Positions 4,521 to 55,695 of a DNA stretch of 64,000 nucleotides are shown one piece after another. The first letter of the stretch is position 1, and each line of letters opens with the position of its first letter. Position numbers and translations under genes: made by a program. Origin of the DNA: Falsiruegeria mediterranea M17 (lineage in GTDB: Bacteria > Pseudomonadota > Alphaproteobacteria > Rhodobacterales > Rhodobacteraceae); the NCBI RefSeq assembly GCF_900302455.1, contig NZ_ONZG01000001.1, positions 496,001 to 560,000 of the forward strand, in the 5' to 3' direction. The notes under the pieces are model-generated. The model was not told the DNA's origin, ran no database searches, and was given only the letters and a program-made list of their open reading frames with translations.

Positions 4521-5350
4521 CTTAGGGCTGCCGCGCGGGTGGCGCTGTCGACCGTGGGCCTTTCGCCAAACCAACGCTCAAAGCCAGGTACGGCCTGATG
4601 GAGCAACATTCCGAGACCGTCGACCGTGGTGCATCCCGCTTCTTCTGCAGTGAGCAGCAGTTTGGTTTTTAGCGGGGCGTAGACCAAATCGGTCACAACA
4701 GTCGAAGGTTTCAGCCCATCCATGGGCACGCGCAGTTCAGAATGGCCAACCATGCCAAGCGATGTTGTGTTCACCACCAGATCTGCATTCTCAACTACAT
4801 TGCCGGCCTGGACCCAATCGATGACCTGCACCCGCTTGCCGAAATCATCGCGCAGCTTTTCGGCACGGACACGTGTGCGGTTGGACAGAAAAACTTCGGG
4901 CACGCCGGCCTCGAGCAGGGCCGAAATCACGGCGCGCGCTGCACCACCAGCCCCAAGTATCAGGGCCGGGCCGGCCTTTGCGTCCCAATCGGGGGCGCCG
5001 CTGTGCAAGTTCTCCATGAATCCGTAGCCATCAGTGTTGTCGGCGTGAATCTTGCCGTCTTCGCGGAAGATCAGCGTGTTCGCCGCGCCGATCAGTGTCG
5101 CGCGATCCGTAATCTGATCGGCGATCGCCATCACCGCCTCTTTATGTGGGACCGTCACGTTGACGCCCACAAAGCCGGCCTTGGGCAAGGTACGCAGAAC
5201 CGTTTCCAGATCCTGGGGGGCCACGTCCATCGGGACGTAGTGCCCGGCGATGCCGTAGGTTTTGAGCCAATGCCCGTGCAATCGAGGGGATTTGGAATGC
5301 GCAACCGGGTGTCCGATCACCCCAGCCAAAGGAATACGTGTGTTCGTCAT
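4517..5350 (-). CDS. aroE: Shikimate dehydrogenase
   Basis: NADP-dependent reduction of 3-dehydroshikimate to shikimate in aromatic amino-acid synthesis. The 277 residues include the substrate site GHPVAHSKSPRLHGHWL (about 13-29), NVTVPHKEAVM (about 64-74) with the catalytic lysine, ANTLIF, NTDGYGF, and the nucleotide-binding loop ILGAGGAARAVI (about 131-142) followed by SNRTRVRAEKL. The C-terminal DGLGMLLHQAVPGFERWFG is typical. The start at 5350 overlaps the maf stop (ATGA), and its stop overlaps coaE. Confidence 0.96.
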   Translation of the reverse strand: MTNTRIPLAGVIGHPVAHSKSPRLHGHWLKTYGIAGHYVPMDVAPQDLETVLRTLPKAGFVGVNVTVPHKEAVMAIADQITDRATLIGAANTLIFREDGKIHADNTDGYGFMENLHSGAPDWDAKAGPALILGAGGAARAVISALLEAGVPEVFLSNRTRVRAEKLRDDFGKRVQVIDWVQAGNVVENADLVVNTTSLGMVGHSELRVPMDGLKPSTVVTDLVYAPLKTKLLLTAEEAGCTTVDGLGMLLHQAVPGFERWFGERPTVDSATRAAALR

Positions 5351-5946
5351 TGTTCGATCACCCCCCGCAACGTCAGGAAATTGAGCAGCTCTAACAGGGG
5401 CATACCCAAAACGTTAAAATAGTCCCCGTCAATGGTTGTGAACAAGCGTACACCCTCTTCTTCGAGTTTGTAGGCCCCAACCGCATGGCGAATACTGTCC
5501 CAGTTCCGATCGACATAAGAGCGCAGATAGGTGTCCGAGCTCACCCGCATCCGTAGGCGGACCTGGCCAACTTGGCGCCAGATTGGTTCGCCGTTTTCAT
5601 AGATAACCGCAGCCGACAGCAGCATGTGCCGCTGTCCACGCATCGCCTTGAGCTGATCAAAGGCCTGCTCTGGTGTGGCCGGCTTGGACAAAAGCTGCCC
5701 CTGAAAATCCAGAACCTGGTCACAGCCCAGAACCATCGCACCGGGCGTTTTCAGGCTGATCTTGCGCGCCTTGAGTTCGGCCAAGGCGTCGGCAATGTCG
5801 CGGGGTGTGGCCTCTTCCGCAATCAGTGCATTTTTAACAGTTTCTTCATCAACACGGGGCACATTAACCTCAAACGGGACACCTGCGTTGCGCAGCAGTT
5901 GCGCCCGAATGGTTGAGCCAGAGGCTAGAACGATGGGGACAGTCAT
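5347..5946 (-). CDS. Maf family nucleotide pyrophosphatase
   Basis: The start at 5946 gives 199 residues beginning MTVPIVLASGSTIRAQLLRN. Maf proteins hydrolyse non-canonical or modified nucleoside triphosphates and some affect division. The SxSxxR-type loop (ASGSTIRAQLL), FEVNVPRVDEE, AELKARKIS, GCDQVLDF and the C-terminal DYFNVLGMPLLELL are all present in order. An in-frame ATG at 6033 would extend into the putative origin with no conserved sequence, so I reject it. The perfect DnaA box at 5946-5954 abuts this start codon, so maf transcription and origin binding may interact. It is first in the maf-aroE-coaE-dnaQ operon. Confidence 0.92.
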   Translation of the reverse strand: MTVPIVLASGSTIRAQLLRNAGVPFEVNVPRVDEETVKNALIAEEATPRDIADALAELKARKISLKTPGAMVLGCDQVLDFQGQLLSKPATPEQAFDQLKAMRGQRHMLLSAAVIYENGEPIWRQVGQVRLRMRVSSDTYLRSYVDRNWDSIRHAVGAYKLEEEGVRLFTTIDGDYFNVLGMPLLELLNFLTLRGVIEQ

Positions 5947-5954
5947 GTGGATAA
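5946..5954 (-). promoter_or_regulatory. DnaA box (perfect consensus)
   Basis: TGTGGATAA on the plus strand is the exact reverse complement of TTATCCACA. It overlaps the first base of the maf start codon. Confidence 0.75.
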
Positions 5955-6090
5955 CCCCTTGGACAGGTCTTTGAGCGATTTCGGATGGTTTGTATGACTT
6001 TCCGCTTGCCACGCAACCCCCGGGGTTTCGCAAAAAACATCTCTGAGTCGTTCAAGTTGTATCCTTTCAGGACAAGGATAACTCGATTTC

Positions 6091-6099
6091 CGTGGATAA
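6091..6099 (-). promoter_or_regulatory. DnaA box, one mismatch
   Basis: CGTGGATAA corresponds to TTATCCACG, one base from the consensus TTATCCACA, in the same orientation as the box at 5946. Confidence 0.6.
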
Positions 6100-6126
6100 C
6101 CCGATCACCCCAAGTTACCCGCAGTA

Positions 6127-6135
6127 TTATCCCCA
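6127..6135 (+). promoter_or_regulatory. DnaA box, one mismatch
   Basis: TTATCCCCA differs from TTATCCACA at one position and is oriented opposite to the boxes at 5946 and 6091. Confidence 0.5.
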
Positions 6136-6187
6136 GGTTCTTTAAGTTAAATCATCATCAAGTATCTGTTTTAAAAAGATATTTGTT

Positions 6188-6234
6188 CCATGTGGGAAAA
6201 TCACCTATATGACCTGACGATGTTTCCCACATGG
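6188..6234. repeat. 12-bp perfect inverted repeat in the origin region
   Basis: CCATGTGGGAAA at 6188-6199 is the exact reverse complement of TTTCCCACATGG at 6223-6234, with a 23-base spacer. Each arm contains a degenerate DnaA-box-like TGTGGGAAA. The right arm also continues as TTTCCCACATGGGGAAA, itself nearly palindromic. Confidence 0.8.
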
Positions 6235-6257
6235 GGAAAACTGGCAGGACAGATGAG

Positions 6258-6266
6258 TTATCCACG
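6258..6266 (+). promoter_or_regulatory. DnaA box, one mismatch
   Basis: TTATCCACG is one base from the consensus, just upstream of a T/C-rich tract (6282-6322) that could act as an unwinding element. Confidence 0.6.
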
Positions 6267-6353
6267 AAAATCCGGCTCCCTACAAAAATCATCATCCTTT
6301 TTTCTTTCTTTCTTTTTTATTAGGTAAGCCCGAACCCGATCCGCGAGACGCAC

Positions 6354-6803
6354 ATGACCGATTTCCTGTTCACGATTTACCCATGGGTCAAATCCCTGCA
6401 CATCATGGCAGTCATCTCGTGGATGGCCGGTCTCTTCTATCTTCCTCGTTTGTTTGTGCATCATGTCGAGCAGGCTGAGAAAGTTCAGGGAGCGCCTGAA
6501 ATCTTTCTGATGATGCAAGAGAAGCTTCTGAAGATCATAATGCGACCGGCGATGATCGTGACCTGGGCCTGTGGTCTGATCATGGTGTTCACGCCTGGTA
6601 TCGTCGACTGGTCGTGGATCTGGCCCTGGACCAAGGGCGCATCGGTTCTGGCGATGACTTGGTTCCATCACTGGCTGCTTAAGCAGCACCGCAGCTTAGA
6701 GGAGGGGACCAATACCCTCTCAGGGCGCACGTACCGCCTCATGAATGAGGTTCCGACCGTTTTGATGGTGGTCATCGTGTTGTCGGTCATTTTGAAGTTC
6801 TGA
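6354..6803 (+). CDS. hemJ: Protoporphyrinogen IX oxidase HemJ
   Basis: HemJ oxidises protoporphyrinogen IX to protoporphyrin IX in heme synthesis and replaces HemG/HemY in many alphaproteobacteria. The 149 residues form about four membrane helices and include the conserved YPWVKSLHIMAVISWMAGLFYLPR region split across about 9-32, with His16 in KSLHIM, and later MTWFHHWLLKQH (about 101-112) with conserved histidines. Length matches the family. It is the first gene to the right of the candidate origin and is followed by rho after a 120-base gap; heme genes bordering the origin are typical for this class. Confidence 0.93.
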   Translation: MTDFLFTIYPWVKSLHIMAVISWMAGLFYLPRLFVHHVEQAEKVQGAPEIFLMMQEKLLKIIMRPAMIVTWACGLIMVFTPGIVDWSWIWPWTKGASVLAMTWFHHWLLKQHRSLEEGTNTLSGRTYRLMNEVPTVLMVVIVLSVILKF

Positions 6804-9517: not shown

Positions 9518-9533
9518 TGTTTCACGTGAAACA
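9518..9533. promoter_or_regulatory. parS centromere site 1
   Basis: TGTTTCACGTGAAACA is a perfect 16-bp palindrome and exactly matches the ParB-binding consensus. It spans the start region of mnmG: the GTG at 9526 is in the centre of the palindrome. ParB is encoded 3.3 kb downstream. Confidence 0.93.
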
Positions 9534-11394: not shown

Positions 11395-12014
11395 ATAGGG
11401 CGGACTTTGAACCCGTTTCGGGAATCAGTGTTTCACGTGAAACATTTTCGAACCTGGAGAGATACGTTGATCTGGTGAGAAAATGGAACCCGACAATCAA
11501 CATCGTGTCTCGTAAGAGCCTGGACGATATTTGGAATAGGCACATTGTTGATTCTGTTCAGGCATTCACGTGTTTGAAGTGTACGGGTTCTTGGGTGGAT
11601 ATTGGGAGCGGTGGTGGGTTTCCTGGTGCTGTTGTTGGAATTCTAGCTAGAGAGCTGTCGCCGAACTGCCAGGTGACTTTGATAGAAAGTGACCAGAGAA
11701 AATCTGCTTTCCTAAGGAATGTTTCACGTGAAACATCGTCGGGGTTCAGGGTGATTGCCAAAAGAATTGAAGACGTTGAGCCTCAATACGCAGATGTAAT
11801 TTCCGCTCGAGCACTGGCTGATCTGAGCACACTTCTGGAGTTCTGTGAGCGCCATCTGAAGTCATCCGGGAGCGCTGTGTTTCCAAAAGGCGTTACATGG
11901 AAAAAAGAGGTAGAGGCCGCTCAAAGGGAATGGAAGTTTGAGCTTGATCCAATTACTAGTGTTACTGAACCACAGGCCGTAATCCTTAAAATCAAGGGAA
12001 TCGAGCGTGCATGA
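11391..12014 (+). CDS. rsmG: 16S rRNA (guanine527-N7)-methyltransferase RsmG (GidB)
   Basis: Methylates G527 of 16S rRNA using S-adenosylmethionine. The 207 residues include [20 protein letters not shown] (about 29-48), the SAM-binding motif [17 protein letters not shown] (about 68-84), [20 protein letters not shown] and [16 protein letters not shown]. Two parS palindromes fall inside the gene and each is read in frame as VSRET (about residues 14-18 and 110-114), so part of the protein is constrained by a DNA site. The start overlaps the mnmG stop, and the parA start lies within its last codons. Confidence 0.95.
11429..11444. promoter_or_regulatory. parS centromere site 2
   Basis: A second perfect TGTTTCACGTGAAACA palindrome, inside the 5' end of rsmG, read in frame as part of SVSRETF. 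Confidence 0.93.
11720..11735. promoter_or_regulatory. parS centromere site 3
   Basis: A third perfect TGTTTCACGTGAAACA palindrome, in the middle of rsmG, read in frame as NVSRETS. It is 291 bases after site 2. Confidence 0.93.
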
Positions 12015-12816
12015 TCTGTCTCGTCCTGACGGACCAAAAATAGTCGCAGTGGCCAACCAAAAGGGCGGGGTTGGCAAGACCACTACCACCATAAATTTGG
12101 CCGCAGCGTTGGTAGAACACGGATTACGTGTTCTTGTCGTGGATCTTGATCCCCAGGGTAATGCGTCAACTGGGTTGGGTATTGAGCGGTCGGATCGCTC
12201 ACAAACCAGCTATGAACTTTTGGTAGACGATGCGGCACCTGAAGATGTGATCCACAGTACAGGCTTCGAAGGACTGTCGATCATTCCAGCGACAGTTGAT
12301 TTGAGTTCAGCTGACATTGAACTGGTTTCAAATGAAAAAAGAAGCTTTCTGCTCCATGATGCGTTGCGTCAAACAGCAATGGATGCCTTTGGGTGGGATT
12401 ACATCCTGGTTGATTGCCCGCCATCCTTGAACCTGTTGACTGTAAACGCGATGGTTGCAGCGCATTCCATATTAGTGCCATTGCAAAGTGAATTTTTTGC
12501 GCTCGAAGGGTTATCGCAACTCATGCTCACAGTTCGAGAAGTTCGCCAAACCGCAAACCCCAAGCTTCGAATCGAGGGAATAGTTCTGACAATGTTCGAT
12601 CGTCGGAACAATTTGTCACAACAGGTTGAGGCAGATGCCAGGGACAACCTCGGCGATTTGGTGTTTGAGACCAAAATTCCCCGAAATGTTCGGGTTAGTG
12701 AGGCACCGTCTTTTGCGCTTCCAGTGCTAAGCTATGATTCGAACTCACAGGGAGCTCAGGCATATCGCGACTTGGCTAATGAGCTCATATCAAAAAATAA
12801 CAGAACATCCACGTGA
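12007..12816 (+). CDS. parA: Chromosome-partitioning ATPase ParA (Soj)
   Basis: Nucleoid-bound ATPase that moves ParB-parS complexes. The 269 residues carry the deviant Walker A VANQKGGVGKTTTTINLAAA (about 15-34), VVDLDPQGNASTG (about 47-59), VDCPPSLNLLTVNAM and EGIVLTMFDRRNNLSQQV. It starts with GTG at 12007, eight bases inside rsmG, with AAGGGAA upstream at good spacing. It shares an operon with parB; the stop TGA lies 14 bases before the preferred parB start. Confidence 0.97.
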   Translation: MHDLSRPDGPKIVAVANQKGGVGKTTTTINLAAALVEHGLRVLVVDLDPQGNASTGLGIERSDRSQTSYELLVDDAAPEDVIHSTGFEGLSIIPATVDLSSADIELVSNEKRSFLLHDALRQTAMDAFGWDYILVDCPPSLNLLTVNAMVAAHSILVPLQSEFFALEGLSQLMLTVREVRQTANPKLRIEGIVLTMFDRRNNLSQQVEADARDNLGDLVFETKIPRNVRVSEAPSFALPVLSYDSNSQGAQAYRDLANELISKNNRTST

Positions 12817-12830
12817 AGGGAGAGGCTGAA

Positions 12831-13724
12831 TTGGCGACTAGGAAAGGAAAGCCCAGGGGGCTGGGACGTGGATTGTCGGCACTTATGGCAGATGTCACAC
12901 CAGAAGAAGCTACACCCGCCGGTGCAACACGTCGGGGTGAGGTTGTCGTTCCGATCGAGAAACTAAGGGCAAATCCAGATCAGCCGCGCCGTAAGTTTAG
13001 GCAAGAAGACTTGGATGATCTGGCGGCATCGGTCAAGGAGAAGGGAATCCTTCAGCCTTTGATCGTTCGACCTGTTGAAGAAGGTGACTACGAAATCGTC
13101 GCAGGTGAACGTCGGTGGCGAGCGGCGCAGTTGGCGCAGTTGCATGATGTTCCCGTCTTGATCCGAGAGCTGGACGACACAGAAGTCCTTGAAATTGCGA
13201 TCATTGAGAACATACAACGCGCTGACCTGAACGCTGTTGAAGAGGCTGCAGGCTTTCGTCAGTTGATGGATCGCTTTGGTCATACCCAAGAAAAACTGGC
13301 AGAGGCATTGGGTAAAAGCCGCAGCTACATCGCCAACCTTTTGCGTCTGTTGGCGTTGCCCGAAGATGTTCAGCAGATGGTTATTGATGGCTTGCTTTCA
13401 GCTGGACACGCGCGTGCGCTGATTACATCAGAAAACCCGTCAGAGCTGGCTAAGATAGTGGTGCGTGATGGTCTGTCTGTCCGCGCGACTGAAGCTTTGG
13501 TGAAGCGCCGGCAGCAAAAGGATGAACCAACTTCTGCTCCGAAGACGCGCAGCACGGGATCAGAGAAAGATGCTGATACACGCGCGTTAGAAAAGGATTT
13601 GTCTGCTATCTTGGCGATGAGGGTTGCGATCAATCACAAGGCTGGCACGGAAACGGGGCAGGTGGTTTTGACATATGAGAACCTGGATCAGCTCGACGAT
13701 CTGTGCGCCAAGCTTAGCCGTTAG
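12831..13724 (+). CDS. parB: Chromosome-partitioning protein ParB (Spo0J)
   Basis: CTP-dependent DNA clamp that loads at parS. It contains RGLGRGLSALMADV at the N-terminus (ParA-stimulating region), the ParB/Srx core with PDQPRRKFRQEDLDDLAASV and IVAGERRWRAAQLA (the arginine-rich CTP motif), ENIQRADLNAVEEA, a helix-turn-helix around KLAEALGKSRSYIANLLRLL, and a C-terminal dimerisation segment. A GTG at 12813 would give 303 residues but lacks a ribosome site; the TTG at 12831 (297 residues) has AGGGAGAGG six bases upstream and starts at the conserved MATRKGKPRG, so I use it. The 3' end overlaps the convergent DUF454 gene by 11 bases. Confidence 0.95.
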   Translation: MATRKGKPRGLGRGLSALMADVTPEEATPAGATRRGEVVVPIEKLRANPDQPRRKFRQEDLDDLAASVKEKGILQPLIVRPVEEGDYEIVAGERRWRAAQLAQLHDVPVLIRELDDTEVLEIAIIENIQRADLNAVEEAAGFRQLMDRFGHTQEKLAEALGKSRSYIANLLRLLALPEDVQQMVIDGLLSAGHARALITSENPSELAKIVVRDGLSVRATEALVKRRQQKDEPTSAPKTRSTGSEKDADTRALEKDLSAILAMRVAINHKAGTETGQVVLTYENLDQLDDLCAKLSR

Positions 13725-26518: not shown

Positions 26519-26610
26519 AATCCGTTTTTGAGGCCAGATGACATCACTGACCATCTTTGTCCCAAGACGCAGACCTGACGTTCTGCGGTTCAGCGTCGAG
26601 CGACAAGCGA

Positions 26611-26680
26611 GGCGCCCGGCCTAACGGAGCAAGGGCCCGTCAGGGCATGATGCGAGGGCGGGAGCCCTCCCGCTCCTGGG
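26611..26680. repeat. GC-rich intergenic element with alternative hairpins
   Basis: Between the sulfotransferase-like gene and the SCP2 gene. GAGGGC-GGGA-GCCCTC (26654-26669) and GCGGGA-GCCC-TCCCGC (26658-26673) are two perfect but mutually exclusive 6-bp hairpins. The sequence looks like a mobile-type or REP-like intergenic repeat; only one copy occurs in the window. Confidence 0.45.
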
Positions 26681-26689
26681 AAAACCGGA

Positions 26690-26971
26690 TTAGCCGAGCA
26701 GAGACCCCAGCTTCATCGCAACGCCCATGTTACCCGAAATCTTGAGCTTGCCCATGGCCACGCCCGTCATCGGGTTCAGCTTGCCGGTGAGCAATTTTAC
26801 CAAGTTGTCCTGACTGATGCGGATGGTGCAGTCGGTGTCGCGGTCTTGGGTGCTGGCGGTGTTGTCGGCCAGAACGATCACGCCATCGTCGCCGCAGTCG
26901 AATTTCAGCGAGCCGTCAAAGCTCTTGTCGCCCAACCCCTGTTGGATTTTCTCCGCGATCTCTTTCAGCAT
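26690..26971 (-). CDS. SCP2 sterol-binding domain protein
   Basis: A 93-residue stand-alone SCP2 domain: KIQQGLGDKSFDGSLKFDCG, DCTIRISQDNLVKLLTGKLN (about 46-65), and the conserved AMGKLKISGNMGVAMKLGSLL (about 72-92, given here in outline) that forms the lipid-tunnel end. Such proteins bind fatty acyl or sterol-like lipids; the bacterial role is not defined. It lies between argG and a repeat element with no operon partner other than possibly argG upstream, from which it is separated by a strong terminator. Confidence 0.88.
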   Translation of the reverse strand: MLKEIAEKIQQGLGDKSFDGSLKFDCGDDGVIVLADNTASTQDRDTDCTIRISQDNLVKLLTGKLNPMTGVAMGKLKISGNMGVAMKLGSLLG

Positions 26972-26988
26972 CCTGTGCCCTCCAATGA

Positions 26989-27018
26989 AAATGCCCGCCT
27001 ATGGCTAGGCGGGCATTT
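26989..27018 (-). terminator. Intrinsic terminator after argG
   Basis: AAATGCCCGCC (26989-26999) pairs perfectly with GGCGGGCATTT (27008-27018) around an 8-base loop. On the minus strand the stem is followed by T-rich sequence, so it should end argG transcription. It is placed 30 bases after the argG stop. Confidence 0.85.
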
Positions 27019-27048
27019 CAAAATCAGCAACGGTGACGTTGCAGGAGG

Positions 27049-50052: not shown

Positions 50053-50874
50053 GTGTTTGGATACCGACAGCACAAATCCCTGCTAAGTGGCGCGTTCACC
50101 ATGGCAGAGATCATCTTTCACGCGGTGGTTCGATCCATTCGATCGGGTCACAACAATGCCTTCATCGCGCTCGGCAAGAACATGATGCAGGTCGTTGTGT
50201 TTGTTCTGATCTTTTACATGATGTTTTCGTTGCTGGGCCTGCGCGGTACGGCGATCCGGGGTGATTTCCTGCTGTACATCATGTCTGGCGTGTTTCTGTT
50301 CATGGTGCATATCAAGTCGGTTGGGGCGATCATGGGGGCGGAAGGTCCCAACAGTCCCATGATGAAACATGCGCCGATGAATACGATCATTTCGCTGCTG
50401 GCGTCGGCAATTGGCGCGCTTTACACGCAGTTGCTGACCCTGTTCATCATACTCTTCGGGTATCATGTTGCCTTTAAACCGGTCTACATCGACAATCCCG
50501 GGGGCGCTTTTGCTATGCTTATGCTCTCGTGGTTCACGGGTTGTGCCGTTGGGCTCGTCTTTTTTTCGATGAAGCCCTGGTTGCCCACGATCGTCGGTAT
50601 CCTGAGCACGGTCTATCAGCGCGCGAACATGATCGCCTCGGGTAAGATGTTTGTGGCAAACTCACTGCCGCCCTTCATGCTGCAGATGTTTGACTGGAAC
50701 CCTCTGTTTCACTGCATTGATCAGTGTCGTGGCTTTGTGTTCCGCAACTACTATCCACGCAATTCCAATTGGGAGTATGCTTTTTGGGTTGGTGTTACGC
50801 TGATCATGGTTGGTTTGATGCTAGAATTCTACACACGTCGCCAAGTATCAAACAGCTGGTACGCCCGCCGATGA
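50053..50874 (+). CDS. Capsule-type ABC-2 transporter permease without its ATPase
   Basis: A 273-residue permease of the polysaccharide/polyol export family (KpsM/RfbA-like). It has six hydrophobic segments with VVVFVLIFYMMFSLLGLRG, GVFLFMVHIKSVGA, FVANSLPPFMLQMFDWNPLF and a C-terminal NYYPRNSNWEYAF. Start GTG at 50053 gives MFGYRQHKSLLSG. The usual ATP-binding partner (KpsT-like) is not encoded in the window, so it must be elsewhere. The gene is divergent from cysQ and followed by a coupled SH3 gene. Confidence 0.83.
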   Translation: MFGYRQHKSLLSGAFTMAEIIFHAVVRSIRSGHNNAFIALGKNMMQVVVFVLIFYMMFSLLGLRGTAIRGDFLLYIMSGVFLFMVHIKSVGAIMGAEGPNSPMMKHAPMNTIISLLASAIGALYTQLLTLFIILFGYHVAFKPVYIDNPGGAFAMLMLSWFTGCAVGLVFFSMKPWLPTIVGILSTVYQRANMIASGKMFVANSLPPFMLQMFDWNPLFHCIDQCRGFVFRNYYPRNSNWEYAFWVGVTLIMVGLMLEFYTRRQVSNSWYARR

Positions 50875-55544: not shown

Positions 55545-55640
55545 TCGCGTCAACCGTTGGGGTGCCTGAATTGGCTGAGAGGTGTCTGACACCAACCCAT
55601 CGAACCTGATCCGGGCAATTCCGGCGTAGGAAACGGTCTT
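55545..55640 (+). promoter_or_regulatory. TPP riboswitch (THI element)
   Basis: The conserved blocks appear in order: GGGGTGCC (55559-55566), GGCTGAGA (55573-55580), ACCCATCGAACCTGATC (55596-55612) and CCGGCGTAGGAAACGG (55621-55636). They match the THI box that binds thiamine pyrophosphate. The start of thiD is about 56 bases downstream. In this class it usually controls translation or termination; no strong intrinsic terminator is visible between the aptamer and thiD, so translational control is likely. Confidence 0.93.
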
Positions 55641-55695
55641 AGTCACAGGCTCACCTTCCATGCCCCGATTGCCCACCAAGATGATGGAGCAACCG

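Follow-up and report, generated by a model that had tools for sequence, protein, structure and literature searches.

A predicted chromosomal replication origin between maf and hemJ in Falsiruegeria mediterranea M17 and its relatives

Results

The maf-hemJ Intergenic Region and Its Neighbors

The window, which is the whole 64-kb stretch of DNA analyzed in this study, comprises bases 496001-560000 of contig C11 (669,759 bp) in the 49-contig, 5.28-Mb draft assembly of F. mediterranea M17. Near its left end, the divergent genes maf and hemJ are separated by an intergenic region, which is referred to as the gap hereafter (Table 1). Leftward from the gap, maf is followed by aroE, coaE and the gene of a dnaQ-like exonuclease, while hemJ is followed rightward by rho, mnmE, mnmG, rsmG, parA, and parB. 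The fxsA and secB genes, which are beyond the leftward genes, are transcribed toward the gap. An earlier sequence-only reading had described an AT-rich gap with transcription diverging from it on both sides. Both descriptions are borne out: the maf side is transcribed leftward and the hemJ side rightward, and the G+C content of the gap is 44%, compared with 48 to 62% in the 1-kb windows of the 64 kb. The same reading held that this was the only gap of more than 300 bases, which is essentially right, except that ORF tiling leaves a second gap at 26519-26845 (ORFs of at least 80 aa) or 26519-27048 (ORFs of at least 100 aa), inside which a 93-aa ORF is found at 26690-26971.

A scan of positions 5700-6500 for promoters and terminators found none. 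Given that 0.8 of each would be expected in shuffled sequences by chance, this result says little about the gap. Elsewhere in the window, a TPP riboswitch (RF00059) was identified at 55548-55649. Positions 50617-50769 match Rfam family RF02645, the Ruegeria cis2 sRNA.

Table 1. Features of the predicted origin region and the adjacent parABS locus. Positions are those of the window.
Feature	Position	Strand	Basis or remark
oriC (predicted), whole maf-hemJ intergenic region, 407 bp	5947-6353		Box cluster and divergent arrangement in relatives
maf (Maf-like protein)	5347-5946	-	PF02545
hemJ/UPF0093	6354-6803	+	PF03653
DnaA box B1, TTATCCACA, perfect, overlaps maf start codon	5946-5954	-	Pattern match
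DnaA box B2, TTATCCACG, one mismatch	6091-6099	-	Pattern match
DnaA box B3, TTATCCCCA, one mismatch	6127-6135	+	Pattern match
DnaA box B5, TTATCCACG, one mismatch	6258-6266	+	Pattern match
GANTC (CcrM-type methylation motif)	6045-6049		Putative function
Candidate unwinding element 1, lowest stability of any 50 bp in the 64-kb window	6138-6187		Nearest-neighbor energies
Candidate unwinding module, conserved	6267-6322	+	Alignment of relatives
Module parts: 13-nt spacer; CTAC; three ATC; T-rich tract	CTAC 6280-6283; ATC 6288-6296; T-rich 6297-6322
parS, perfect	9518-9533 (C11:505518-505533)
parS, perfect	11429-11444 (C11:507429-507444)
parS, perfect	11720-11735 (C11:507720-507735)
parA	12007-12816	+	AAA_31/CbiA domains
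parB	12813-13724	+	ParB_N, HTH_ParB, ParB_C

A Cluster of DnaA Boxes

The one perfect and three single-mismatch DnaA boxes that had been noticed previously were all confirmed (Table 1). Thus, positions 5940-6353 (414 bp) contained four boxes with at most one mismatch, compared with 0.13 expected, and none of 2000 dinucleotide shuffles reached four. When up to two mismatches were allowed, eight boxes were found in the same 414 bp versus 1.46 expected (0 of 500 shuffles). In the whole 64-kb window there were 14 boxes against 7.5 expected, and two of 100 shuffles reached 14. Because this window-wide count was raised only modestly, the signal is that of a cluster. The controls with reversed patterns lead to the same view: the looser pattern TTATCCNCR occurred at 147 places in the assembly and its reversed pattern at 209, while the perfect box occurred 24 times and its reversed pattern 26 times. 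Since the controls gave as many or more matches, single boxes mean little, whereas the cluster does. Among the matches listed (100 of the 147), the only ones of TTATCCNCR on C11 between 463,766 and 512,567 were the four of the gap.

On a different contig, two perfect DnaA boxes are 76 bp apart on one strand (C17:18846-18930), between divergent ORFs, of which one encodes an Exo_endo_phos protein and the other, of 193 aa, has no Pfam match. This pair is possibly a DnaA-regulated promoter.

Conservation of the Gap in Relatives

Two sets of relatives were used. A related hemJ was present in 350 named loci, and the best 80 of these made up the first set; maf was divergent upstream of hemJ in all 80, and the length of their gaps ranged from 402 to 452 bp. 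The alignment of these gaps had 81 rows including the window, and conservation was read on 71 rows after thinning. For the second set, 120 genomes of the family were drawn, of which 104 had a hemJ-like match and 16 had none; several weak matches among the 104 are probably not hemJ. The divergent maf-gap-hemJ arrangement was found in 29 of the 30 best family loci, the genome of this study included. The family gaps contained 85 boxes, compared with a shuffle mean of 3.3 and 10 in the highest of 100 shuffles.

The individual boxes differed in their conservation. Box B1 deviated by no more than one mismatch in 80 of the 81 aligned rows; it was perfect in 5 and mostly TTTTCCACA. Similarly, B3 had at most one mismatch in the same columns of 70 rows. 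B2 reached this level in only 13 rows and B5 in 18, while 62 more rows had two mismatches at B5, where the sequence was mostly TAATCCACG. The weak conservation of B2 and B5 as 9-mers counts against the interpretation of the gap as oriC. GANTC was found in 80 of the 81 gaps of the named set and 18 of the 29 gaps of the family set, and in 50 of the 81 it occupied the same position as in the window. This motif and its enzyme are named in PMC8116508. The copy in the window possibly connects the origin with methylation by CcrM. The contig of one record with the region typical of Rhodobacteraceae (L079) bears the title Nocardioides marinus DP1N28-1, which is the name of an actinobacterium; this record is probably mislabeled or contaminated.

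parABS and GC Skew

With what we take to be the consensus of the parS palindrome, and with up to one mismatch allowed, only three parS were found in the 5.28-Mb assembly. All three are 3.2-5.4 kb from the gap and beside parAB, with positions inside mnmG and rsmG shortly before parAB. Similarly, two relatives (G061 and G016) each had two parS, their only ones, 3-5 kb from the equivalent gap. In a survey of 2021, parAB was near ori in almost all genomes, with exceptions that include Rhodobacterales (PMC8116508).

The sequence-only reading had also predicted that the minimum of cumulative GC skew would be at the gap. The skew of C11 changed sign near the gap, and over 262 kb that were read without interruption (C11 400,001-662,000) the cumulative minimum was close to the gap without coinciding exactly with it; a minimum elsewhere, which that reading had named as refuting, is not indicated, although the comparison is not a sharp one. 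Of the skew samples from C11, 11 of 13 were negative left of the gap and 8 of 8 were positive right of it; positive skew (+0.022) was seen in one 12-kb sample that covers the stretch 6-18 kb leftward of the gap. The cumulative G-C was lowest (-2264) at 482,979, at a distance of 19 kb leftward from the gap, and was -2225 at the gap; it reached 964 at the end of the 262 kb, and its highest sampled value was 1368. The gap is therefore only 39 counts above the minimum, compared with a total span of about 3,600, and it is on the right-hand margin of a flat valley, with no sharp minimum at the gap itself. In G061, all 10 left samples of 20 spread samples were negative and 7 of 10 right samples were positive; the three nearest samples on the right, out to 107 kb, were slightly negative, and the cumulative minimum over 100,001-310,000 was at 254,284, which is 56 kb from its gap. 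In G016, 9 of 10 left samples were negative and 8 of 10 right samples were positive. Skew locates the origin to tens of kb, and the gap is not contradicted.

Unstable DNA and a Conserved Module next to hemJ

Given the nearest-neighbor energy values that were assumed here for ranking stability, the least stable 100 bp of the window (6125-6224) are inside the gap, and positions 6279-6328 are its third least stable 50-bp segment. The relatives were compared through 104 distinct gaps, which were pooled from the two sets after the removal of four duplicates between them; the pool leaves out L178 and L179 (the genome of this study and a close relative) and L196, which has no maf match. The least stable 50 bp started at gap position 160-299 in 65 of the 104 gaps and at position 300 or beyond in the other 39. 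Low stability in the zone of 6138-6187 was common in relatives, and the sequence there was mostly unconserved. The strongest conserved block adjoins hemJ; in it, a DnaA box is followed by 13-14 nt, CTAC, triplets of the ATC type and then a T-rich tract. Anchoring at B5 succeeded in 102 gaps, with L108 and L197 as the exceptions; in 82 of these 102, CTAC started 13 or 14 nt past B5, and 71 of the 102 had ATC/AAC doublets within 42 nt, compared with a mean of 9.1 and a highest value of 16 in dinucleotide shuffles. A 12-nt perfect inverted repeat (6188-6199 and 6223-6234) was considered as a part of the origin and rejected, as it is not kept exactly in two close relatives (L036 and L037).

Similar to the basal unwinding system (BUS) of Bacillus subtilis and other bacteria, the block consists of a box, a spacer, triplet repeats and T-rich DNA, and its triplets have A in the middle on one strand (PMC8287927; PMC10721633). 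Different from the BUS described there, its triplets are 3'-TAG-5', whereas 3'-GAT-5' is the commonest in the BUS, and the spacer from B5 to the ATC run is 21 nt, which exceeds the published limit of 16. The published search rule for the BUS requires three or more 3'-NAN-5' triplets no farther than 16 nt from a DnaA box that has up to two mismatches (PMC8287927). This rule did not detect the B5 module of the window, because the ATC run begins 21 nt past B5. In our application of the rule, the triplets were presumed to be 3' of the box strand. In the gap of the window it detected sites after B3 (three ATC with a spacer of 15 nt), B2 and a two-mismatch box, the last two on the minus strand. The rule is loose: matches were found somewhere in 84 of the 104 gaps and near B5 in 30 of the 104, but when the gap of the window was shuffled, 81 of 300 shuffles matched as well.

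Because it is conserved, the B5 module with its CTAC, ATC and T-rich parts is taken as the likely opening site, a prediction toward which we lean. It is also possible, although we do not favor it, that the gap is oriC and the strands open in its AT-rich middle after B3 (6138-6187) instead. The 50-bp stability minimum of the window is in this middle, that of the relatives most often begins in the same zone, and the three ATC of the window begin 15 nt after B3, inside the published 16-nt limit. However, ATCATC follows B3 in just 2 of the 104 gaps and B5 in 69 of the 104, and the sequence after B3 is mostly unconserved, whereas that after B5 is conserved.

Discussion

The cluster of DnaA boxes, the least stable DNA of the window, the conserved arrangement in relatives, the presence of parS only nearby and the change of skew are computed observations, and together they support the earlier proposal that the maf-hemJ gap is an origin. 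From them we infer DnaA binding, an opening site, helicase loading and origin activity, and the gap is very probably the chromosomal oriC of F. mediterranea M17.

It is very improbable that the gap serves maf and hemJ solely as a divergent promoter region under DnaA control, with the origin at another place in the flat skew valley, about 19 kb further left. The skew minimum is indeed at 482,979 on C11, the gap must hold the start signals of both genes, and the perfect box pair of C17 is also between divergent ORFs. Among the matches listed, however, no other TTATCCNCR was found on C11 from 463,766 to 501,946, and all parS that were found are to the right of the gap, at most 5.4 kb from it. Moreover, the positions of B1 and B3 and the length of the gap are kept in relatives, which exceeds what a promoter needs. 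An origin of a secondary replicon, either a chromid or a plasmid, would be compatible with the draft state of the assembly, and members of Rhodobacteraceae often possess large extrachromosomal replicons. This explanation is scarcely credible, given that the only match to a DnaA domain is on this 670-kb contig too, 154 kb from the gap, that core genes flank the gap, and that the equivalent site is on 3.8- and 4.3-Mb contigs in two relatives. A plasmid origin was also rejected by comparison of the gap with 72,556 plasmid records, which gave no match, although a diverged one could be missed.

Cori of Caulobacter crescentus is between hemE and COG1806 and contains five DnaA boxes, five CtrA sites and one IHF site (PMC1914354). 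Similar to Cori, the gap is an alphaproteobacterial region in which a DnaA-box cluster and AT-rich DNA are beside a heme-related gene; different from Cori, its neighbors are maf and hemJ. The sequence-only reading had placed the gap in the hem/rho/maf region of alphaproteobacterial origins with parAB near. While hemJ, rho, maf, and parAB are all present, the hem gene here is hemJ, and the only hemE match in the assembly is on contig C22. No match to COG1806 (PF03618) was found in the assembly, whereas the Caulobacter control was detected. The CtrA site TTAA-N7-TTAA had no exact match in the gap of the window and was present in 4 of the 81 and 2 of the 29 gaps. Likewise, TGATCCACA, which we take to be the Caulobacter G-box, was absent from the window's gap and present in 1 of the 81 and 2 of the 29. 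The IHF pattern WATCAN5WTR was found at 6199 and in 28 of the 81 and 13 of the 29 gaps, without a single fixed position. A Caulobacter-type origin was rejected on the basis of hemE being elsewhere, COG1806 not being found and the gap having no CtrA site. More tentatively, and with considerable doubt, the origins of Rhodobacteraceae might carry a family-specific unwinding variant that consists of a box, a spacer fixed at 13-14 nt, CTAC, ATC (3'-TAG-5') triplets and T-rich DNA, in which DnaA would read a triplet other than the commonest one, 3'-GAT-5'; such origins would be without both Caulobacter boundary genes and the CtrA sites.

If the gap functions as oriC, DnaA would bind B1, B2, B3, and B5, and an oligomer of ATP-DnaA would assemble, pointing from B5 toward hemJ. 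The duplex would then be opened at the conserved CTAC/ATC-repeat/T-rich module (6280-6322), probably aided by the very unstable stretch after B3. Helicase loading would follow, and one fork would depart to each side. The new origins would then be separated by ParA together with ParB bound at the three parS 3-5 kb away.

Origin predictions for Rhodobacteraceae have already been published, and the gap of the window is similar to the origins of related bacteria. Kopejtka et al. (2019; PMC6699656) predicted oriC in 101 Rhodobacteraceae chromosomes, while the origin of eight strains was not identified. The gap is similar to these oriCs in being from the same family and in the criteria used, i.e., DnaA boxes, a local GC minimum, a GC-disparity minimum and nearness to parAB (PMC6699656). 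The word maf is absent from the main text of that paper, and no box map was found there. In the open literature searched, no box map of the maf-hemJ region was found; it is not claimed to be unpublished. Marker frequency has been measured in Cereibacter sphaeroides and Paracoccus strains (PMC13342612).

Our results pin the predicted origin of an unclosed genome to 0.4 kb. Moreover, the conserved anatomy, which includes the positions of the boxes, the candidate opening module and the neighboring maf and hemJ, could help to locate the oriC of other members of Rhodobacteraceae. Should the duplex open at the ATC-triplet module, this naturally occurring variant would allow the stringency with which DnaA recognizes origin triplets to be examined.
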